Shown here piece by piece: positions 16,919-43,006 of a stretch of 48,944 nt of DNA. How positions within the stretch are numbered: position 1 is the first letter of the stretch; every line of letters starts with the position of its first letter. The notes beneath the pieces are model-generated. The model worked only from the letters and a program-made list of their open reading frames with translations, was not told the DNA's origin and searched no databases. Source of the DNA: Candidatus Nomurabacteria bacterium (GTDB lineage: Bacteria > Patescibacteriota > Minisyncoccia > Phycocordibacterales > SBAW01); NCBI GenBank assembly GCA_943356415.1, contig CALREW010000004.1:1-48944 (forward strand), in the 5' to 3' direction. Made by a program: the position numbers and the translations under genes.

Positions 16919-18598
16919 ATGTTTAAGGCCGAACTGCATAGGACCCTTGAAGAAATAGTCGCTGAGCTTGGCTCAACGGCTTCCTTTGCCGTCGACTACC
17001 CGCCGAAGGATGCCGCAGGCTTTGCTGACTATGCGACTAGCGCAGCACTCGCTGCTGCGAAGGATCTAGGTAAAAAACCTTTGGAAGTAGCTGAAGCTAT
17101 TGTTACGAAATTGGACGAACGCGCACTTCCGTTTATATCAGAAGTATCAGTTGCAGGTCCGGGGTTTATCAATATTACGCTTGCACCAGAAGTCTTTACT
17201 GAAACCATCGCTCGAGCACTTTCCGATGGAGGTGATTGGGGGAAGAATGTTACCCGTGAGGGAAGTCGCATTATTGTTGAGTACTCGCAGCCCAATCCAT
17301 TCAAGCCGTTTCATATCGGACATTTGATGTCGACGACGATAGGAGAATCACTCTCACGACTTATCGAATATTCCGGTGCCACAATTTCTCGCTTTAACTA
17401 CCATGGCGACATCGGGCCGCATGTGGCAAAGGCATTGTGGGGTCTTAAGAAGCACAACCTCTCGGCTTCTAACATCGATGATATAGGTCGTGCCTATGTG
17501 CTTGGCAATACTGCGTATGAGGACGACCCCGCCTTAAAAGGGGAGATAGATGCAATCAACAAGCGCCTGTATACAGGTGATGCTGAGCTTGCACCGCTAT
17601 ATGAGGAAGGTCGTGCGGTATCGTTGGCGCGCTTTGCTGAAATATACGAGTTGTTGGGATCAACGTTTGATCACGTTGTTTTTGAGAGTGAGACAGGCCC
17701 AATCGGTGCGGAAATTGTGAAAGAGGCCATGGCAAAAGGTATTTTTGAAGAGAGCGATGGTGCCACGGTCTTCCGCGGTGAAAAGTACGGTCTACACACT
17801 CGTGTATTTATTACATCGCATGGAACGCCGACCTATGAGGCAAAAGAAATAGGCTTCGCCAAGCGCAAGCACGAACTTTTTCCGTTCGATCAAAATATTA
17901 CTGATGTGGCGGTTGAGCAGGATGAGTATTTTAAGGTTGTTGCAAAAGCGATAGACGAACTCTGGCCAAAATATCGTGGTTCCTACGGGCACGTGACCCA
18001 CGGCATGATGCAGCTTTCTGGAGGAAAGATGTCCTCACGTAAAGGCAATGTCATCACAGGTGAGTCGTTGATCGAAGACGTCATGGAAGCAGCCCGAGAA
18101 CGCATGAAGGAAAGTGACGTTGAAAATCCGCAGAACATTGCGAAAGCAGTTGCGGTTGCGGGTATCAAATACGCAATACTTAAACAGCATCTCGGCAAGA
18201 ACATCGTTTTTGATCCAGAGAAATCACTTTCTCTTGAAGGAGATTCTGGACCATATCTGCAGTATGCCTATGTGCGCACTGCGTCCATCCTCCGCAAAGC
18301 GAAAGAGGCGGGTGTTGCCTCAGATGCGCATGGTCAGCACGGCACTCCAACGAGCCTTGAGCGACTGCTCAGTCGTTTTCCGGAAATAGTTGAGCGCGCA
18401 GCGCAGGAGCTTGAACCGCATCACGTCGCGCAGTACCTCACCACGCTCTCAAGTGAGTTCAACAGCTGGTACGCCTCGACGAAAGTCCTCGATGGTACCA
18501 GCGCAGCCTCGTACAAACTGGCTATCGTAGAGGCGGTGGGGCAGACTCTTAAAAACGGTTTGTGGTTGTTGGGTATCGAATCTCCTCAAGAGATGTAA
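16919..18598 (+). CDS. argS: Arginyl-tRNA synthetase
   Basis: VEYSQPNPFKPFHIGHLMSTTIGESLSRL; C-terminal DALR-type region. Confidence 0.97.
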   Translation: MFKAELHRTLEEIVAELGSTASFAVDYPPKDAAGFADYATSAALAAAKDLGKKPLEVAEAIVTKLDERALPFISEVSVAGPGFINITLAPEVFTETIARALSDGGDWGKNVTREGSRIIVEYSQPNPFKPFHIGHLMSTTIGESLSRLIEYSGATISRFNYHGDIGPHVAKALWGLKKHNLSASNIDDIGRAYVLGNTAYEDDPALKGEIDAINKRLYTGDAELAPLYEEGRAVSLARFAEIYELLGSTFDHVVFESETGPIGAEIVKEAMAKGIFEESDGATVFRGEKYGLHTRVFITSHGTPTYEAKEIGFAKRKHELFPFDQNITDVAVEQDEYFKVVAKAIDELWPKYRGSYGHVTHGMMQLSGGKMSSRKGNVITGESLIEDVMEAARERMKESDVENPQNIAKAVAVAGIKYAILKQHLGKNIVFDPEKSLSLEGDSGPYLQYAYVRTASILRKAKEAGVASDAHGQHGTPTSLERLLSRFPEIVERAAQELEPHHVAQYLTTLSSEFNSWYASTKVLDGTSAASYKLAIVEAVGQTLKNGLWLLGIESPQEM

Positions 18599-18640: not shown

Positions 18641-21600
18641 ATGTCTGAAATAGAGAAGGGGACTGATATTCCCCAGGTCGTTCCGGTTCCCGAGAAGTCT
18701 GATATAGCCAAGCGCGAAGAGGATATCCTTGCGTTTTGGGACGCTGAGCGCATTTTTGAGAAGTCTGTAGAGAAAGACGCTCCTCGCGGCGAGTTTACCT
18801 TTTATGATGGGCCCCCTTTTGCTACGGGTCTTCCTCACCACGGCCACGTTCTACCTGGCACTATAAAAGATGCCATTCCGCGCTATCGAACGATGCGCGG
18901 GTATCGCGTGCGCCGCATGTGGGGCTGGGACTGTCACGGATTGCCACTTGAGAACATCATTGAGCAGGAGCAGGGGATTAGGAATAAACGCGAGATAGAA
19001 GAGCGAGGCATCAATAATTTCGTCGAAGCAGCACGCGCCGCAGTACTCCGGTACGCAGACGATTGGCGCCGCATCATCCCACGCATGGGGCGCTGGGTTG
19101 ATATGGAGAACGACTATAAGACGATGGATACTACCTATACCGAATCGGTGTGGTGGTCCTTCAAGACGCTTTTTGAAAAAGGGTTAGTCTACGAAGGGTA
19201 TAAATCGATGCACTTGTGTCCTCGTTGTGGCACGACGCTCGCAAACTTTGAAGTAGCGCAGGGCTATAAAGATATAGAAGATATTTCGGTGTACGTGAAG
19301 TTGCCGCTTGAAGGTGAAGCGAACACGTCACTTCTTGTGTGGACAACGACACCATGGACGCTGCCTGGCAACACCGCCGCGGCAGTCCACAACGATATTG
19401 TGTACGTCAAAGTAGAACACCAAGGAGAATATCTTATTCTCGCGAAAGAGAAGTTGGATGTGATACCTGGTGAGGCCAACATCATTGCTGAATTCTCAGG
19501 CAAGGAACTGGTTGGAAAAAAGTATGAACCACCGTTTTCCTACTTTAAAGGAAAGAGTGATCTCAAAGGAAAAAGTAAAGGTTGGCGCATCTACCATGCG
19601 CCGTATGTAACAACAGACAACGGTACTGGTGCGGTACACCTCGCGCCTGCGTTTGGCGATGTCGACCTCGACCTCGCACAGAAAGAAGGGTTTCCTGTGG
19701 TTCACCACGTAACGCAGGATGGCCTTTTTACTCCAGACGTTACAGACTTTGCGGGCCTTTTAGTTAAGAAAAAAGGAGCACATCAAGATACTGACAAAAG
19801 AATAGTTGAAGCGCTGACTCATAGCGGAAAACTCTTTAAGCAAGAGACTATCGTACATAGCTACCCACACTGCTGGCGCTGTGACACGCCGCTTTTGGTG
19901 TACGCAGCATCTTCGTGGTTTGTAAAAGTTTCAAAAATAAAAGCGCAGCTTATTGCCGCCAATAAGACTATCGGGTGGGTACCAAAACATGTTGGAGAGG
20001 GACGTTTCCACAACTTGCTTGAGACAGCGCCAGATTGGGCAATATCACGAGCACGTTACTGGGGAGCACCACTCCCGATGTGGCGCAACGAAAAGACAGG
20101 AGAGTTACAGACGCTCGGTTCTATCGACGAATTGCTCACGCATGTAAAGCGTTCAGGTAACCGATATTTTGTTATGCGCCATGGCCAAGCGCGAAGCAAT
20201 GTTGAAGGGTTCCTCGACTCTGGCGCTGTGACGACCAACGGGTTAACCGACAAGGGAAGAGAGCAGGCAGCGTCTTCGGCTGAGGATTTGATTGGAAAAG
20301 GTATTGACCTTGTTGTTGTTTCTCCGGTGCTGCGCGCACAAGAGACGGCAGATATTGTATGCAGACGTCTTGGTCTGTCACCGAATGTACGCATGACGGA
20401 TGAGCGGTTACGCGAAGACGGCTTCGGTACGTTTGAAGGCAAGTCCATTACAGAATGGACCAACCGATTCCCGGACGGCAAACTCGACTTTTTTGATTCG
20501 TCACATGGTGGAGAATCCTACGCTGACGTGCGTCAGCGTGTGGGGGCGTTTCTCTTTGAACTTGAACGTCGTTACACCGGCAAAACAATCCTCCTTGTCA
20601 CACACGACACTCCAGGGTGGCTTCTTGATGGCATTGCACGACGCAAGAGTGTGGAAACGCTTTCTCCTGAATCTGGAACGCTGTTTCTTAAAAACGCAGA
20701 GGTGCGTGAAATTCCATTCGTGCCGTACCCACACAACGCCAAGTACGATCTTGACCTCCATCGCCCATACATCGATGAGATAACGTGGGGCGATGCAGTC
20801 TCTGGTATATGGCGACGTGTCCCAGATGTTTTTGACTGTTGGTATGAGTCAGGGGCGATGCCGTTTGCAAGTAATCACTACCCGTTTGAAGGTAAAGAAC
20901 GTTTTAACCCCAAGCGAATGTTTGGCTTGGGGAGTCGAGGATATCCGGCAGACTTCATCGCTGAGTCTATTGACCAGACGCGTGGATGGTTTTATTCGAC
21001 GCTTGTCCTTGGTGTCGCGCTGTTCGGAAAGACTGCCTATCGCCACGTCATAACCAACGGGCTTGTGTTGGCTGCAGACGGTAAGAAGATGAGCAAAAAG
21101 CTCAAAAACTATACTGATGTAACGCTTATCGCTGACCGGTACGGTGCTGATGCGTTGCGATATTACTTGCTCTCGTCGTCGCTTATTCGCGGGGAAGATC
21201 TTAACTTCATTGATCGAAGTGTTGATGAGATAGCAAAGAAGCTCATTATGCGTCTCGATAACGTGCGTAGTTTTTATGCACTTTACGATGACAAAACAGT
21301 AGCTTCACCGCATAGCGAGGCTCTCCTTGATCGATGGATACTTTCTCGCCTCAATGAACTCATTGCCCAGTCGACCGCAGGCTATGAAGCGTATGAGCTT
21401 GATGTTGCAACGCGGCCGATTGCTGACTTTATCGACGATCTTTCGACGTGGTATCTGCGACGCAGTCGAGATCGTTTCAAAGGTGATAGCGCCGATGATG
21501 CAAAAGCCGCACGAGCAACGCTTCGCTTCGTTCTTACGGAGCTCTCAAAAGTGATGGCGCCGATTATGCCGTTTTATTCTGAATACTTGTATCGGGCTGT

Positions 21601-22159
21601 TTCCCCCGAAGGAGCGCCAATAAGCGTGCATCTCACTGAATGGCCGGAAGGAGGTTCTTCCGACGGTGAATTACTATCGAACATGAAGACGGTGCGCGAA
21701 GTCGTATCGCTTGGTCTTGAAGCTCGAGCGAGCGCTAATATCAAAGTACGTCAGCCGCTGGCGTCACTTACGGTGTGCGGGAAGGAAACACTTGATGATG
21801 GGTATGTTGCGCTTGTTCGAGATGAAATAAATGTGAAGGAAATCCGCTTCCTCTCCGAAGGAGAAGGAGTTGAGCTCGACGTGGTTATTACACCAGCTTT
21901 GCGTAAAGAGGGCATGCGTCGCGATGTCGCACGGCTGATACAAGCATTTAGGAAAGAACAGAATCTCACGGTCTCTGATCGTCCAAAACTTACGCTCAGA
22001 ACTAATGCGGAAGGAAGGACGTTCGTGGAGTCTATAAAAACAGAGTTGTGTTCAGATACCGGTCTGGCGCAGCTTGTTGTTGCTGAATCTGCTGAAGGAG
22101 CAGCAAATGCAAAAGATCTCCCATTTCCAATTGAACTTTCCCTAGAGCCTAACGTTTAG
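18641..22159 (+). CDS. ileS: Isoleucyl-tRNA synthetase with internal histidine-phosphatase (RHG) domain
   Basis: IleRS motifs GLPHHGHVLPGTIKD, WGWDCHGLPLE, DGKKMSKKLKNY; insert FVMRHGQARSN...SPVLRAQETA...LREDGFGTFEG...VTHDTP in one frame. Confidence 0.95.
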   Translation: MSEIEKGTDIPQVVPVPEKSDIAKREEDILAFWDAERIFEKSVEKDAPRGEFTFYDGPPFATGLPHHGHVLPGTIKDAIPRYRTMRGYRVRRMWGWDCHGLPLENIIEQEQGIRNKREIEERGINNFVEAARAAVLRYADDWRRIIPRMGRWVDMENDYKTMDTTYTESVWWSFKTLFEKGLVYEGYKSMHLCPRCGTTLANFEVAQGYKDIEDISVYVKLPLEGEANTSLLVWTTTPWTLPGNTAAAVHNDIVYVKVEHQGEYLILAKEKLDVIPGEANIIAEFSGKELVGKKYEPPFSYFKGKSDLKGKSKGWRIYHAPYVTTDNGTGAVHLAPAFGDVDLDLAQKEGFPVVHHVTQDGLFTPDVTDFAGLLVKKKGAHQDTDKRIVEALTHSGKLFKQETIVHSYPHCWRCDTPLLVYAASSWFVKVSKIKAQLIAANKTIGWVPKHVGEGRFHNLLETAPDWAISRARYWGAPLPMWRNEKTGELQTLGSIDELLTHVKRSGNRYFVMRHGQARSNVEGFLDSGAVTTNGLTDKGREQAASSAEDLIGKGIDLVVVSPVLRAQETADIVCRRLGLSPNVRMTDERLREDGFGTFEGKSITEWTNRFPDGKLDFFDSSHGGESYADVRQRVGAFLFELERRYTGKTILLVTHDTPGWLLDGIARRKSVETLSPESGTLFLKNAEVREIPFVPYPHNAKYDLDLHRPYIDEITWGDAVSGIWRRVPDVFDCWYESGAMPFASNHYPFEGKERFNPKRMFGLGSRGYPADFIAESIDQTRGWFYSTLVLGVALFGKTAYRHVITNGLVLAADGKKMSKKLKNYTDVTLIADRYGADALRYYLLSSSLIRGEDLNFIDRSVDEIAKKLIMRLDNVRSFYALYDDKTVASPHSEALLDRWILSRLNELIAQSTAGYEAYELDVATRPIADFIDDLSTWYLRRSRDRFKGDSADDAKAARATLRFVLTELSKVMAPIMPFYSEYLYRAVSPEGAPISVHLTEWPEGGSSDGELLSNMKTVREVVSLGLEARASANIKVRQPLASLTVCGKETLDDGYVALVRDEINVKEIRFLSEGEGVELDVVITPALRKEGMRRDVARLIQAFRKEQNLTVSDRPKLTLRTNAEGRTFVESIKTELCSDTGLAQLVVAESAEGAANAKDLPFPIELSLEPNV

Positions 22160-22177: not shown

Positions 22178-22756
22178 ATGGCTGAACGGGTGTATACAAC
22201 ACCGGGCATCGTGTTGAGGAAATACGAGGTTGGAGAGGCGAGCGTATCGGTCCTTGTTCTTACTAAAGAACATGGGTTGGTGCGTTTGCGTGCACAAAGT
22301 GCGCGCAGGGGTACGGGCAAACTTCGCTACGGACTTGAACCTATGACGCTCGGCACGTATTCGTTTGTGCGCGGCATGCAATCTCAACGACTGGTGGGAG
22401 TCGAAGTGAATGAAATGCTTCTCTCTCCGAAACACGGAGCGGCTCGTCAAGCAGCAGGGCAGATAAGCAGACTTCTTATACGGTTGATGCCGGGCGAAGC
22501 ATTTGACGACAGCATTTTTGCGCTTGTTGAAGGCGGATTGCGGTATTTGTGTGCACTCGAGGCTACGGAGGTTTCTGAAGCTGAATGTGCGATTGTGCTC
22601 GCCCTTCTTTCTCGTCTCGGATATCTCTCCGAAAATCCAACCTTTCTTAGTTTTGCCGACGAACCGCTTTCCCCAGAAAATCTTTCGCGTATGAAAAGTC
22701 TACGCAGCGAGGCGGTACGCACCATAAACCACGCACTCGGACTAAGCGGTCTGTAG
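22178..22756 (+). CDS. recO: DNA repair protein RecO
   Basis: TTPGIVLRKYEVGEASVSVLVLTKEHGLVRLRAQSARR. Confidence 0.8.
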   Translation: MAERVYTTPGIVLRKYEVGEASVSVLVLTKEHGLVRLRAQSARRGTGKLRYGLEPMTLGTYSFVRGMQSQRLVGVEVNEMLLSPKHGAARQAAGQISRLLIRLMPGEAFDDSIFALVEGGLRYLCALEATEVSEAECAIVLALLSRLGYLSENPTFLSFADEPLSPENLSRMKSLRSEAVRTINHALGLSGL

Positions 22757-22798: not shown

Positions 22799-24721
22799 AT
22801 GGCAGACGATCGTGACGCTGTGGAGCGCATGCAGGACACGCTCTATTCGCGCACTGCAAAAACCGGCATACGCCCTCGCACTCCACTTCCGGGTGTTGGT
22901 GTAGAGAAGCCGCAAGGCTGGAAGCACGATGAACCGGACGCAGCTTCTGCGGCGTATGTGCCAAGAGAGCCAAAAAGACCTTTTCCGCTCATGTCGCTTT
23001 TTCTTGGGGCAATCGCCTTTTTCGTCATAGCTGCGGGCATTGCGGCGTATACCTTTATTTATGGGGGAAATACGGTCTCGACGAGCAATATTGAAGTTTC
23101 CATCCTCGGACCATCACTGCTTGATGGAGGAAAGGATGCGGAGTTTGAGGTGAGCGTATACAACCGAAACGCCGCGCCGTTACAGCTTGCAGACTTGGTT
23201 ATTGAATATCCGGAAGGAACGCGCAGCTCAAAAGACTTAACCGCAGCTCTCCCAAGTGAGCGCATATCATTTGGGACCATTGAGTCAGGTGCTCGGATGA
23301 AGCAGACGGTGCACGCGGTTCTCTTTGGAGAGCAAGGGTCCAAGAAGCGCATACTCGCAACGCTCGAGTATCGCGTTGCGGGCAGTAACGCTATTTTCGT
23401 AAAAGAAGCAGAGCTCAATGTCATTCTTGGAGCGTCCCCGGTATCTATTAGTATTGATGGCCCTGACGAAGCGGTGTCCGGTCAAGAAGTGAAATTTGTC
23501 GTTTCCGTTCGTTCAAATGCACAAACACCCATTAAGAGTGTGGCGCTTGAAGCACAGTACCCGTTTGGATTTTCAATAACAGGCTCTGACCCCGAGACGT
23601 CGGTTGGCGAAAATATCTGGCAGCTTGGCGACTTGGAACCGGGGAAAGAAAAGAAAGTAACCATTACCGGGCTTATCGACGGCCAAGATAACGAGGAGCG
23701 GGTATTCCGTTTCCTTGCAGGAACTGAAGAGGATAAAACTGCTGCGCGCATCGCTGTTCCATACCTTACCGTGCCAAAGCCTCTGACGCTGAAGAGACCG
23801 TTTGTGGGAGGAACACTCACCATCAATGGAGATCAAGGGAAAACGGTTGTCGTTGAATCAGGCGGCACGGTACGCGGACAGATCGCATGGAAGAATAATC
23901 TCGATACTGAGGTGCAAGATTTAGTTATCGAAGCGAAGTTTTCTGGACAGGCCCTCGATAAAGGTTCTGTTATTGCTTCGCGTGGATTCTATCGTTCGCT
24001 TGATTCGACTATTGTTTGGAGCAAGGACGATGACGCAACCCTGGCTCGCGTTGCTCCTGGTGAAAGTGGTACGGTAGATTTTTCTTTCACGGCGCGCGGT
24101 TCGTCAGGCACTTCTGTTATCACCAACCCAGAGATGCAGATATCGGTATCGGTCTCTGGTAAGCGCACGAGCGCAGAGAACGTCTCAGATACCATTTCAT
24201 CTGCATTTAGCAAGACGATACGAGTGGGTTCAGCGCTTGTTGTTGGTACGCGAACCCGACATTCTTCTGGACCGATCCAAAATACGGGGCCCATGCCGCC
24301 TAAGGCAGAACAAGAAACCACCTACACCGTTACGTGGAGTGTGAAGAATCCTTCAAATACCATCTCAAACACCAAAGCATCGGCAACACTCCCAAGTTAT
24401 GTGCGGTATATCGGGGCTTCTACTCCAAGCAATGAGGGAGTCTCCTATGACGATCGTAGTCGAACGGTTACTTGGAATCTTGGCGATGTGAAAGCCGGAG
24501 TTGGTTTTGCGGCCGCAGCGCGCGAAGTGTCATTTAAAGTGGGGCTCACGCCGAGCACCTCGCAGGTAGGGAGCACCCCAGCGCTCACCGGCCGGGTTGT
24601 CCTCTCAGGGAACGATCGCTTCACTGGCTCTTCCGTTTCGGCTGAAGGCAACCCAGTTACGACCATGATTGCAGGAGGGGAAAACGGCTATTCCGACGGG
24701 ATGGATAGGGTGTCACAATAG
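22799..24721 (+). CDS. Membrane-anchored protein with large extracellular beta-rich region
   Basis: Cytoplasmic N-terminus, one TM, then repeated Ig/DUF11-like beta-strand segments. Confidence 0.6.
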   Translation: MADDRDAVERMQDTLYSRTAKTGIRPRTPLPGVGVEKPQGWKHDEPDAASAAYVPREPKRPFPLMSLFLGAIAFFVIAAGIAAYTFIYGGNTVSTSNIEVSILGPSLLDGGKDAEFEVSVYNRNAAPLQLADLVIEYPEGTRSSKDLTAALPSERISFGTIESGARMKQTVHAVLFGEQGSKKRILATLEYRVAGSNAIFVKEAELNVILGASPVSISIDGPDEAVSGQEVKFVVSVRSNAQTPIKSVALEAQYPFGFSITGSDPETSVGENIWQLGDLEPGKEKKVTITGLIDGQDNEERVFRFLAGTEEDKTAARIAVPYLTVPKPLTLKRPFVGGTLTINGDQGKTVVVESGGTVRGQIAWKNNLDTEVQDLVIEAKFSGQALDKGSVIASRGFYRSLDSTIVWSKDDDATLARVAPGESGTVDFSFTARGSSGTSVITNPEMQISVSVSGKRTSAENVSDTISSAFSKTIRVGSALVVGTRTRHSSGPIQNTGPMPPKAEQETTYTVTWSVKNPSNTISNTKASATLPSYVRYIGASTPSNEGVSYDDRSRTVTWNLGDVKAGVGFAAAAREVSFKVGLTPSTSQVGSTPALTGRVVLSGNDRFTGSSVSAEGNPVTTMIAGGENGYSDGMDRVSQ

Positions 24722-24735
24722 AAGGGTACTAGCGC

Positions 24736-26268
24736 ATGCCACCATTTCAAGTAAATAACGTGCCGACATCCCCAGCACCTGTGACATCTCCTCCTGTGCG
24801 TAGGGGGAAGAAGGTCGTGCTTATTTGTATTCTCTTTGTTCTGCTTGCTGCACTGATTGCAGGGGGGTTTTTTGCTGTACGGAAAGGGTACGGTTTAACA
24901 TTGTATGAATCAGTGAGGTCTTTCTTTGGGAAAAAAGCGGTAGAAAAGAGCATCATCGATTTCATAAAAGAAGATTATATGCAATCGGTGGTGTTGGTTG
25001 CGTGTGTTGATAAAACTGGTACTGAAACTGGGCATGGGTCAGGGCTTTATTCAGTTGACCAGGCAGGTAACCCTATTGTTGAGACAAATTCTCACGTGGT
25101 CCTGGCTCCAGACGGGGAATTTTACGGATGCAACGTTTATTTTCCTCGATTGCCATCTGGTGAGTTCTACAGCGCGGCATATTTCTCGGATAGCGTGCAA
25201 ATGTATTACAACCGCCAGAGCAATATTGAAGGGTCGCTTATAGAAGGTCTTGATTACGCAGTCTTAACTCTGAAATCAGCGTATAAGACTGCCAATGGCG
25301 TGTCTTATCCTTTTCCGCCCGTAGCGCGCAGCGCGTACGATACTGAGATTGAAGTATGTAAAGAGCTGAAGGAGATTCAGCTTACCGACCCTCTTTTGAT
25401 GCTCGGCTATCCTGGGAATTTGGCCAATAAGTCAATTACTGTGACAAACGGTATTGTCAGTGGCATCGCTGACGACGGCAAGATTAAAGTTTCTGCTATT
25501 ACAAATCCGGGTGTTTCTGGGGGCATTGTTATATCTCCGGTAACAGGTTGTTTGATGGGGATCCCAACGGAAGTCTTTAGGGGCTTTGGTGGAGGTGTGG
25601 GGTACATCATCTCTGCGTACTACAAAGATGCATTTATTGCTGGTTTGACCGGGGAAGGTACGTACGGCACAAGGAAAGGTTCTGAGCGGATGGTGCCATA
25701 TACGGCACCGAGCGGCACAGTGTTTGTCCGCCCAGAATTTTGGTCAAGCGAGCCAATACCCCAGCAGTCGATCATCATAAATGAAAATAGCCGCATCGGA
25801 CTTCTGCCTGGGTTTACTATGGAAGTTCTCGACGACGGCAAAAATGTACGCATAACGAACCCTGGTGGCGTAAAGTTCAGTGCTCCACGTGAAGATATCT
25901 TCGATGAATCATTTGCAAACTTTAGATTCTTGGAAGGGCCGCTTCCTGGTGGAAGTGTGCGAGGTTCCTTCGATGCTGTGTTACAAGGTATCGATTTCCT
26001 TTACGGAGGCACTCAAGAAGTAACCAAGCCGCTCGCGTTCTCATCAACGAAAGACGGATATCCGCTAGCCTCTTTTTCCTACCGGGTTGCCTACTCTTCA
26101 GGAACGGTAACCTTTTTCAAACACTTGATGATATTTGCCCATGGCCGGCTGTATCAATTCATAGCAAGCGTGTCTCTTAACCCAGATGTACAGAAGGATT
26201 TTGATAAAGACTACAAACCCATTCTCGACAAGCTTGAGCAAGTAGCAGACTCCATCGAGATACGATAA
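24736..26268 (+). CDS. Membrane-anchored trypsin-like serine protease
   Basis: N-terminal TM; candidate triad NSHVV, DYAVL, NPGVSGG. Confidence 0.75.
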   Translation: MPPFQVNNVPTSPAPVTSPPVRRGKKVVLICILFVLLAALIAGGFFAVRKGYGLTLYESVRSFFGKKAVEKSIIDFIKEDYMQSVVLVACVDKTGTETGHGSGLYSVDQAGNPIVETNSHVVLAPDGEFYGCNVYFPRLPSGEFYSAAYFSDSVQMYYNRQSNIEGSLIEGLDYAVLTLKSAYKTANGVSYPFPPVARSAYDTEIEVCKELKEIQLTDPLLMLGYPGNLANKSITVTNGIVSGIADDGKIKVSAITNPGVSGGIVISPVTGCLMGIPTEVFRGFGGGVGYIISAYYKDAFIAGLTGEGTYGTRKGSERMVPYTAPSGTVFVRPEFWSSEPIPQQSIIINENSRIGLLPGFTMEVLDDGKNVRITNPGGVKFSAPREDIFDESFANFRFLEGPLPGGSVRGSFDAVLQGIDFLYGGTQEVTKPLAFSSTKDGYPLASFSYRVAYSSGTVTFFKHLMIFAHGRLYQFIASVSLNPDVQKDFDKDYKPILDKLEQVADSIEIR

Positions 26269-39505: not shown

Positions 39506-42500
39506 ATGAGTATTACGAACATTGCATCTAACACGTCTGCTCGCGTAGCGGCAGGAGTGCTTGGCATCGCGATGGCACTTTCGCTCAGCTTTGGCGCAGT
39601 CGTTGCACCAGCTTCAGCACAAGATGCCGCCACGATGGCAGCTCTTCAAGCCCAGATCGCAGCCCTCACCGCGCAGCTCGCTGCGCTCTCAGGCGGATCT
39701 TCAGCGGGCGCTGGCGTTTGTCCGTACACCTGGACCCGCAACCTTCAAGTAGGTGCGACCGGTGCTGACGTGATGAAGCTCCAGCAGTTCCTCAATTCCG
39801 CAAGTGACACGATGGTCGCAGCAACGGGCGCAGGTTCGAAGGGTTCGGAAACGAGCACCTTCGGTCCGGCAACTAAGGCAGCGGTCATGAAGTACCAGAC
39901 CAAGAACGCCATCGCTCCGGTGGCAGGATTCGTCGGTGCACTCACTCGCGCTTCTCTTAATTCCAAGTGCCAGACCGCAACCCCAGGCCCTACTCCTAAC
40001 CCGACTCCGTCGGCAGGAACTGGTCTTACGGTTTCGGCAGCTGCACAGCCGGCTAACGGCCTTGCAGTTCCGAGCGCCTCGCGCGTTCCGTTCACCAAGT
40101 TCACGCTCACCGCTGGTAACGATGGTGATGTCACGGTTAACTCCGTGGTTGTCGCTCGCACCGGTGTCATGAACAAGGTCGTATTCAACGGCGTAACTCT
40201 TCTCGATGAGAACGGTTCCGTCATTGGTACGGACAAGGTGCTCAACTCTAACGACCAGGCAACTATCGGTACGACTATGGTCATACCGCGTGGTACCACC
40301 AAGACCTTCACGGTCGCTGGTAACATGGCCGACATCTCCACCATGGGTTCCCATGCTGGCGAAGTAGGCGGTCTCTCGGTTGTTGCAGTTAACACTACTG
40401 CTACCGTCACCGGCTCTATGCCGATCGTCGGTGCAACCCACACGGTTAACGGCACGTTGGTAATCGGTACTGCCGATACGACCATCTCGTCGTTTGACCC
40501 GAACGGTGATCAGACCAAGGAAATTGGTACGACTGGTCAGCGCTTCGCAGGTGTCCGCATCACTGCTGGCTCCTCTGAAGACATCCGCATCCGCTCGATA
40601 CGCTGGTACCAGACCGGCTCGGCAGGTGCATCTGACCTTGCAAACCTCAAGACTGTTGTCGACGGCACTGAGTACTCCGTCTCTGTTTCGGCAGATGGCA
40701 AGTACTTCCAGTCTGACTTCGGCTCAGGCATTATGGTTGCAAAGGGCTTCTCGTCTGAGATCTACATCAAGGGCGACATAATCGGCACTGGAGCATCCAG
40801 CCGCACGGTTATCTTCAACCTCGATAAGACGACTGACCTCTACGTAACTGGTGAGAAGTATGGTTACGGCATCAGCCCGACCACTTCGGCTTCGACGGCT
40901 TCGGCTGGCGCAGGCACCCAGTTCACCTCAGCTGCAGGCACCACGAACCCGTGGTTCAGCGGCTCGGTGTTCACCATCTCGGCTGGCTCGGTGACTTCGG
41001 TCTCCAAGGCTAACGAGGTTCCTGCTCAGAACATCGCGGTCAACGTCCAGAATCAGGTGCTCGGTGGTTTCACCACTGACATCAAGGGCGAGCCGCTTAC
41101 GGTTCAGTCCATGGTCTTCGAGTTCGCAACGACTTCTACGGTTTCTGGCTCTTCGTTCGGTAGCTACCTGTTGACTAGCGTCTCGCTCGTCAACCAGAAC
41201 GGCTCCGTCGTTGCTGGCCCAGTCGATGCGGTTGACGGTACTTCTGGCGACAACAAGCAGAAGGTAACCTTCACTGACTCGATCACCATCCCGGTTGGCA
41301 AGCAGACCTACACCCTCAAGGGTAAGGTCAACTCGTCAACGGTAAACGGTACTGTCTTCACTGCTTCGACCACTCCTCAAGCGTGGACGAACGTGAAGGG
41401 TGAAACTACGGGCAACTCGGTTACCCTCACCAACGGTGCATTCACGATGAATGCAATGACGGTTAAGGGTGCCGCTCTTGCGATCACGGTTGCATCGACT
41501 CCGTCGGCACAATCGATCGTCGCAGGTGCCCAAGCCTTCACCTTCGCTAAGTACCAACTCGATGCAACGCAATCTGGTGAGGATGTACGCTTTAGCTCCA
41601 TCCCGCTCCAGCTTACGCACAGCGCAGGTGCCACTCAGCTCACGAACTGCAAACTCTACGATGGCTCAACGGCCCTCAACACGGGTAGCAACAACGTGAA
41701 CCCGTCTGGTACTTCGCCGGCATCGAACACGTTCACCCTCGACAACTCCCTCACGGTTCCGAAAGGAACAGTGAAGACTCTTGATCTTAAGTGCGACGTC
41801 TCCGGTTCTGCTTCGGGCACCTTTGCCTGGGGTATCGCAGCATCGCCTTCGATCACGGTCACTGGTGTTAACTCGAACGTCGACGTAACCGAGACGGTCA
41901 CTGCCTCGGCTGGTCAGACCATGACGATCGCCTCTGGCGCTCTCGCGGTTAGCCTCCACACGTCGAGTCCGTCTTACAGTGCCGTTGCAGCAAACTCGAC
42001 TGACGTAACGGTCGCGGCATACAAGTTCCGCCCGACCAACGAAGATGTCACGCTTCGCCGCATCGGCCTTAAGCTCACCAACACAGCGTCCTCGTCCTCG
42101 TCTGACCTCGTCCGTGTCACCCTCTGGGTTGGCGCAACGCAGATCGGCGCGGCGACCTTCACCGGCGCAAGCAACAACGCTACTTCCACCAATGCTTCTG
42201 GTACTGGTGAAATGAGCTACGTGCTTCCGAAGGACACTGACACTGTCGTCACGGTCAAGGCTGATCTCGCAGCTATCGGCACTAACCAGCCGGCAACTTC
42301 GGGTCACCTCATCGCGATTGACATCGACACGAACGGTACGAACACACAAGGCGCAGGTGTAGGCTCGGGTGCCACCATCACGGCAACCGGCTCAACTGCA
42401 GTCGCAGGTGTACGTATGTTCAAGTCGGTTCCGACCTTCACGTACAGCACGGCAGGTGGTGCCGCCAACAACGGCGTCAACGACCTCCTCGTGTTGAATG

Positions 42501-43006
42501 TGTCGTCTGATGCGAAGGGTGATACGCAGCTTCATAAGCTCGCTTTCACCATCGCAACGACAACCGCTACTCTCTCGGCTCCGACCTTCGTCGGTCCGAA
42601 CGGTAACGTCTCGTCGACAACCAACGCGGTCATCAACGCCGCAGGTACTGCGATCACGGTGTTCTTCGACTCTACGTCGAATACCCAGGACCGCTCTATC
42701 TCGGCTGGAACAACCAAGACCTACACCCTCCGTGCAACGTTGAGCCTCACGGGCTCCAACACGACGGGCTCGGTCTCCACGTCACTCAAGGCTGACACCA
42801 GCTTCCCATCGCTTGCAGCGTCTACCTTCATGGATAAGACCTCAACGATTGAAGCTGCCTCTGCCAACCTCATCTGGTCGCCGAACTCGACCTCTACGGC
42901 GATTGCGACCACGACGAATGACTGGACCAATGGTTATGGTCTCGCTGGCTGCTTCACGAACTCTGGTCTCGGCAACGATTGTACGGCTCGCGTTATCGCC
43001 AAGTAA
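39506..43006 (+). CDS. Large secreted surface protein (S-layer candidate) with peptidoglycan-binding domain
   Basis: Signal peptide; NLQVGATGADVMKLQQFLNS...TFGPATKAAVMKYQ PGBD-like; long beta-rich Ser/Thr-rich body; strongly biased codons. Confidence 0.8.
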   Translation: MSITNIASNTSARVAAGVLGIAMALSLSFGAVVAPASAQDAATMAALQAQIAALTAQLAALSGGSSAGAGVCPYTWTRNLQVGATGADVMKLQQFLNSASDTMVAATGAGSKGSETSTFGPATKAAVMKYQTKNAIAPVAGFVGALTRASLNSKCQTATPGPTPNPTPSAGTGLTVSAAAQPANGLAVPSASRVPFTKFTLTAGNDGDVTVNSVVVARTGVMNKVVFNGVTLLDENGSVIGTDKVLNSNDQATIGTTMVIPRGTTKTFTVAGNMADISTMGSHAGEVGGLSVVAVNTTATVTGSMPIVGATHTVNGTLVIGTADTTISSFDPNGDQTKEIGTTGQRFAGVRITAGSSEDIRIRSIRWYQTGSAGASDLANLKTVVDGTEYSVSVSADGKYFQSDFGSGIMVAKGFSSEIYIKGDIIGTGASSRTVIFNLDKTTDLYVTGEKYGYGISPTTSASTASAGAGTQFTSAAGTTNPWFSGSVFTISAGSVTSVSKANEVPAQNIAVNVQNQVLGGFTTDIKGEPLTVQSMVFEFATTSTVSGSSFGSYLLTSVSLVNQNGSVVAGPVDAVDGTSGDNKQKVTFTDSITIPVGKQTYTLKGKVNSSTVNGTVFTASTTPQAWTNVKGETTGNSVTLTNGAFTMNAMTVKGAALAITVASTPSAQSIVAGAQAFTFAKYQLDATQSGEDVRFSSIPLQLTHSAGATQLTNCKLYDGSTALNTGSNNVNPSGTSPASNTFTLDNSLTVPKGTVKTLDLKCDVSGSASGTFAWGIAASPSITVTGVNSNVDVTETVTASAGQTMTIASGALAVSLHTSSPSYSAVAANSTDVTVAAYKFRPTNEDVTLRRIGLKLTNTASSSSSDLVRVTLWVGATQIGAATFTGASNNATSTNASGTGEMSYVLPKDTDTVVTVKADLAAIGTNQPATSGHLIAIDIDTNGTNTQGAGVGSGATITATGSTAVAGVRMFKSVPTFTYSTAGGAANNGVNDLLVLNVSSDAKGDTQLHKLAFTIATTTATLSAPTFVGPNGNVSSTTNAVINAAGTAITVFFDSTSNTQDRSISAGTTKTYTLRATLSLTGSNTTGSVSTSLKADTSFPSLAASTFMDKTSTIEAASANLIWSPNSTSTAIATTTNDWTNGYGLAGCFTNSGLGNDCTARVIAK

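Follow-up and report, generated by a model that had tools for sequence, protein, structure and literature searches.

A histidine phosphatase domain inserted in the isoleucyl-tRNA synthetase of Patescibacteria, occurring either fused or as a neighbouring gene

In the window analysed here, a 48,944-nt stretch that is an entire contig of an 803-kb Candidatus Nomurabacteria genome with an estimated completeness of 97.5%, the isoleucyl-tRNA synthetase (IleRS) was found to hold a whole branch-1 histidine phosphatase (RHG) domain within its polypeptide. We consider it probable (roughly 0.6) that this protein is a bifunctional enzyme, in which an IleRS core carries an inserted, catalytically competent phosphomonoesterase that is co-expressed with the synthetase, is often tethered to it and acts in connection with charging.

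The gene occupies 18641..22159 on the + strand (1172 aa) as a single open frame without interruption, just as the earlier note on this DNA had read it. The NCBIfam model TIGR00392 (ileS) matched both flanks of the insert with 857.8 bits, against an equivalog cut-off of 621.4. Part 1 of the synthetase (aa 1-506; 18641..20158, +) contains the HIGH-type motif PHHGH (aa 65-69; 18833-18847), the editing-domain motifs TTTPWTLPGN (aa 235-244) and HLAPAFGDVD (aa 333-342) and CxxC motifs at aa 193 and 411, and ends in ...RARYWGAPLPMW...GSIDELL; part 2 (aa 705-1172; 20753..22156, +) comprises DLHRPYID, CWYESG, KMSKK (aa 816-820; 21086-21100) and the anticodon-binding domain. The motifs looked for in an IleRS, namely the HIGH-type motif, KMSKK and both CP1 editing motifs, are all present. 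Judged by its sequence, the ORF is a single intact type-2-like IleRS, and because it keeps these motifs and is the sole strong IleRS match in a nearly complete genome, the fused protein presumably performs all isoleucine charging there. Directly upstream lies argS (16919..18598, +) and directly downstream a recO-like gene (22178..22756, +; named from its sequence), an arrangement (argS-ileS-recO) that many relatives share. Elsewhere in the window, a DUF11 repeat protein (640 aa) and a trypsin-like protease (510 aa), the latter apparently membrane-anchored, follow recO at 22799-26268, and a 1166-aa ORF at 39506-43006 has a short peptidoglycan-binding match (aa 85-151), its remainder being without a Pfam match.

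The RHG domain, delimited through Pfam, AlphaFold2 and Foldseek, spans aa 507-691 (20159..20713, +) and is placed in the loop between RYWG and DLHRPYID/CWYESG. PF00300 (His_Phos_1) covers aa 510-658 with an E-value of 1.1e-30 and 107.1 bits against a gathering score of 21.7. The catalytic residues that had been picked out from the letters were all numbered correctly: R513-H514-G515 (20177..20185, +), of which H514 is the predicted phosphorylated histidine; R565 (20333..20335, +), the predicted second phosphate-binding arginine; E592 (20414..20416, +), the predicted general acid; and H655 (20603..20605, +), the predicted second active-site histidine. A linker with the pattern F-x-P-x-P-H-N (PFVPYPHNAKYDL; 20714..20752, +) leads back to the synthetase, and its residues P697, H698 and N699 are well kept (52/53, 45/53 and 47/53, respectively). 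Stand-alone RHG relatives stop right at the linker start, and the domain edge was therefore set at about aa 691. Insert-less IleRSs read ...RYWGxPxPxW...GSxxEL, then a few to about 20 aa, then DLHRPYID...(D/C)W(F/V)(D/E)SG, and in the window the phosphatase and linker together (aa 507-704) stand in place of the short stretch from GSIDELL... to DLHRPYID, at a site that we take to be the connective-peptide (CP2-like) region of class I synthetases. From RYWG to W(F/Y)(D/E)SG, 55-76 aa were counted in 51 insert-less IleRSs, compared with 230-283 aa in most inserted ones, which bears out the earlier statement that this segment is ordinarily short. The insert-less set came from 52 loci, mostly of other phyla, in which a full match was absent, and the 51 that were measurable had no RHG domain at the loop.

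Structure prediction with AlphaFold2 gave a confident phosphatase domain for the insert alone (pLDDT 91.8, pTM 0.90), and an IleRS plus phosphatase domain, both confident, for the whole protein (pLDDT 89.4, pTM 0.83). The best solved-structure matches of the insert model in Foldseek were histidine phosphatases (TM 0.72-0.77), including Rv2419c, the H. thermophilus phosphoserine phosphatase and PhoE, and those of the whole protein were P. megaterium IleRS2 and the yeast and T. thermophilus IleRSs. The Pfam match, the domain model and the Foldseek matches rule out a normal IleRS insertion without a phosphatase fold and, with TIGR00392 on both sides, uphold the claim of a histidine phosphatase inside IleRS. 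None of the NCBIfam phosphatase equivalogs reached its cut-off with the window protein (score against cut-off: CobC, 64.2 and 162.9; GpmB, 33.8 and 261; PspA, 46.2 and 350; SixA, 31.8 and 74.5).

Retention of the catalytic residues, likewise asserted beforehand for the one protein, extends to its relatives. Of 107 single-copy IleRS inserts, 106 have the complete R-H-R-E-H set (R513, H514, R565 and H655 each 107/107, E592 106/107; G515 99/107), as do all seven first tandem copies (7/7), and the six columns in which the domain is best conserved are these five residues and S561. Overall, the insert is less conserved and faster-evolving than the synthetase core, with mean identities to the window protein of 40% and 54%, respectively, across 48 relatives. 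Seven relatives have even lost the cap region (aa 595-619, about 25 residues over the active site) and keep every catalytic residue. Among RHG domains of ValRS, E592 is lost in three of eight copies, one of which has also lost H655 (E to D or S, H to S), and the stand-alone gene next to ileS in a Nealsonbacteria genome (L184) has lost E592 or H655 as well; catalysis is thus not maintained everywhere.

A survey of homologues at the insertion site matched the insert profile in 233 of 246 relatives (E <= 1e-30), nearly all belonging to one order. Across the phylum (Patescibacteria/CPR; loci named Taylorbacteria, Nomurabacteria, Zambryskibacteria, Wolfebacteria and similar), an RHG domain inside an ORF of 840 aa or more was found in at least about 65 of 380 genomes; every such ORF that could be classified was an IleRS or ValRS, with ValRS accounting for about a dozen genomes among the matches listed. 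The single gene noted earlier thus represents a trait of IleRS and ValRS that is labile and extends across the phylum. Insert-less genomes without a nearby RHG gene occur even within the same order (G031, G056 and G306), so that the inserted domain is dispensable or replaceable. Outside the phylum, the contig scan yielded, among the matches listed, only one apparent RHG-bearing IleRS, on an 8.5-kb contig of a 'Spirochaetia' bin (L117; QYPD01000003.1); it groups with a Wolfebacteria insert (aLRT 93) and, given this grouping and the short contig, was taken as a probable mis-binning.

Five genomes whose IleRS lacks the insert have a stand-alone RHG gene between argS and ileS: in Staskawiczbacteria (L137), in Nealsonbacteria (L184; about 650 bp before ileS), and in L226 (genome G323), L297 (G404) and L298 (G387; about 0.9 kb before ileS). 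Four further loci (L301-L304) have argS-ileS-recO or a similar order and no RHG gene there. Four of the five adjacent genes share a clade of the domain tree (support 98/93) with three IleRS inserts and an unlinked gene (G226). Since this supported clade is nested among the IleRS inserts, one and the same domain is carried either fused to IleRS or as its neighbour. Given several hundred genes in each genome, it is very improbable that chance filled this one intergenic slot five times, although fewer than five events may underlie the five cases, because the L184 and L226 genomes are sisters on the core tree. On the IleRS core tree the insert state is forced to change at least 12 times, and the AU test spoke weakly against a single origin of all inserts that excludes the free-standing RHGs (p = 0.03). 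For the ValRS copies, the same test on a first tree did not reject a single clade (p = 0.83); a later tree scattered the ValRS copies, with at least two changes forced.

We infer from these patterns that the domain would be an active phosphomonoesterase working by the phosphohistidine route and functionally tied to IleRS. In this mechanism, an editing-competent, ordinary IleRS core would carry an independently folded phosphomonoesterase in a tolerant CP2-like surface loop, which would follow the standard RHG cycle: H514 would accept the phosphoryl group, R513, R565 and H655 would hold the phosphate, E592 would protonate the leaving group, and water would release H514. Co-expressed with the synthetase and often tethered to it, the phosphatase would dephosphorylate a small molecule or macromolecule tied to charging or its regulation; that partnership is the most likely reading because the same domain occurs inside IleRS or as a gene between argS and ileS. 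RHG enzymes transfer the terminal phosphoryl group from phosphomonoesters, a group that aminoacyl-AMP and ApnA do not have, and these two are therefore unlikely substrates. AMP is chemically possible, yet its hydrolysis would waste purine where biosynthesis is scant. The seven cap-less relatives keep every catalytic residue, which favours an open site; for this reason, the preferred candidate is a macromolecule bearing a phosphate (protein or tRNA) or a phosphomonoester that is only loosely recognised, ahead of a nucleotide polyphosphate. Of the earlier proposal of an undescribed bifunctional enzyme, bifunctionality is very probable, given a phosphatase domain with its catalytic residues inside the IleRS body. 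The substrates suggested there drew no support from the results: aminoacyl-AMP and ApnA are unlikely, whereas a 3' phosphate or a protein phosphate is conceivable. The open-access literature that we searched held no description of an internal histidine phosphatase in IleRS, although one may exist elsewhere and the architecture may show in domain databases.

The domain also varies in number and host. Two RHG domains per IleRS are a common arrangement in one family (f102) and also appear in a Peregrinibacteria genome (L140). A 1572-aa IleRS (L096:667-5382) has three: a pair in the loop and a further copy after KMSKS, the latter position being occupied in L099 and L290 too. In ValRS the RHG domain sits in the corresponding loop, as a tandem in L100, and the RHG of the L286 ValRS groups with Peregrinibacteria IleRS inserts. 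Other enzyme domains are inserted in IleRS or ValRS as well: NUDIX and Ser_hydrolase (PF06821) in L107:1-4272, HAD and Ser_hydrolase in L101:327-4157, Ser_hydrolase in L288:195-4037, and GNAT in L099:1638-5990. Taken together, the inserted hydrolases suggest that the IleRS and ValRS of these bacteria serve as carriers of enzyme domains. RHG was further observed fused to an MFS-type transporter (L285:1185-3056; 624 aa) and to a VTT-domain membrane protein (L110:1867-3177; 437 aa); the domain hence fuses widely, and linkage need not imply a shared pathway.

This breadth feeds the chief rival reading, to which we assign a real but minority chance: the IleRS and ValRS loops may be permissive sites for mobile small enzyme domains in streamlined genomes, with an active phosphatase that serves unrelated metabolism. 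Such hosting without coupling would accommodate the unrelated NUDIX, Ser_hydrolase, HAD and GNAT inserts in the same synthetases, the MFS and VTT fusions, the lability of the insert on the core tree, and the three further stand-alone RHG proteins in the window's genome. It does not readily account for a stand-alone form that adjoins ileS in five genomes, which is non-random, for the confinement of classified long RHG-bearing ORFs to IleRS and ValRS among the synthetases, or for near-universal retention in one order.

Considerably less probable is a structural role, in which the RHG fold would be a spacer, dimerisation or tRNA-contacting module and its phosphatase chemistry incidental or lost. 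The degenerate ValRS copies and the cap deletions would fit such a role, but the catalytic residues of the IleRS inserts are almost invariant against a fast-evolving background, and the stand-alone neighbours would work without a covalent link. An artefact, whether an assembly chimera near positions 20150 or 20745, a frameshift or an intein-like element, is hardly conceivable: the window ORF is a single open frame, the same junctions recur in more than 200 independent genomes, the 233 of 246 matching relatives were independently assembled, and the Pfam scan of the whole ORF detected no intein-type (Hint) domain. A bifunctional enzyme with its phosphatase coupled to charging is the reading that we consider most probable.

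Few enzymes are as strongly conserved as the synthetases, and a whole second enzyme inserted beside the editing domain is unusual, the more so as its active site is kept across an order and the insertion recurs across a phylum. The hosts are a large assemblage of very small bacteria, most of them not in culture, and the alternation between fused and adjacent forms ties an uncharacterised phosphatase to translation in these hard-to-culture organisms, with a defined protein on offer for a one-residue test (H514A). More tentatively, and against the odds as we see them, the IleRS of Patescibacteria (in some lineages the ValRS) may have repeatedly gained a fused or neighbouring phosphatase that performs an undescribed step tied to branched-chain aminoacylation. 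If so, dephosphorylation of a synthetase regulatory site, a tRNA end or a charging inhibitor would constitute a new layer of translation control or repair.

Compared with known systems, the window protein shares its core fold, HIGH/KMSKS motifs and editing domain with IleRS2 (P. megaterium 8c8v, yeast 8wnd and T. thermophilus 1ile), whereas no phosphatase domain is described in these top Foldseek matches and IleRSs lacking the insert have a short loop at the equivalent place. The insert has the fold and catalytic residues in common with the branch-1 phosphatases Rv2419c (a glucosyl-3-phosphoglycerate phosphatase), H. thermophilus phosphoserine phosphatase, PhoE and CobC, which, unlike the insert, are free-standing; identity is 21-27% in the top matches. 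Among phosphatase-type models, the window protein scored highest with the RNase H / acid phosphatase fusion (NF005567, PRK07238), at 95.1 bits where the cut-off is 326. This fusion likewise joins an RHG domain to a nucleic-acid enzyme, but its partner differs from IleRS and it is presumably an end-to-end fusion, as opposed to the mid-domain insertion in the window. Enzymes appended to synthetases are already known. One case, ileS_w_GNAT (NCBIfam NF040702), is an IleRS with an extra enzyme domain, as in the window, but the domain is an acetyltransferase; the window protein had no GNAT match in Pfam and scored 311.3 bits against the NF040702 cut-off of 1999. What is new here is the stand-alone RHG gene between argS and ileS, the RHG domain in ValRS, and the two to three RHG copies and other inserted domains. 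The Mycoplasma penetrans MetRS, shown to be bifunctional and absent in this form from other well-characterised mycoplasmas (PMC7694997), resembles the window protein in that a metabolic enzyme is appended to a bacterial synthetase; there it is an N-terminal aminotransferase domain, whereas here it is an internal, phylum-wide phosphatase.
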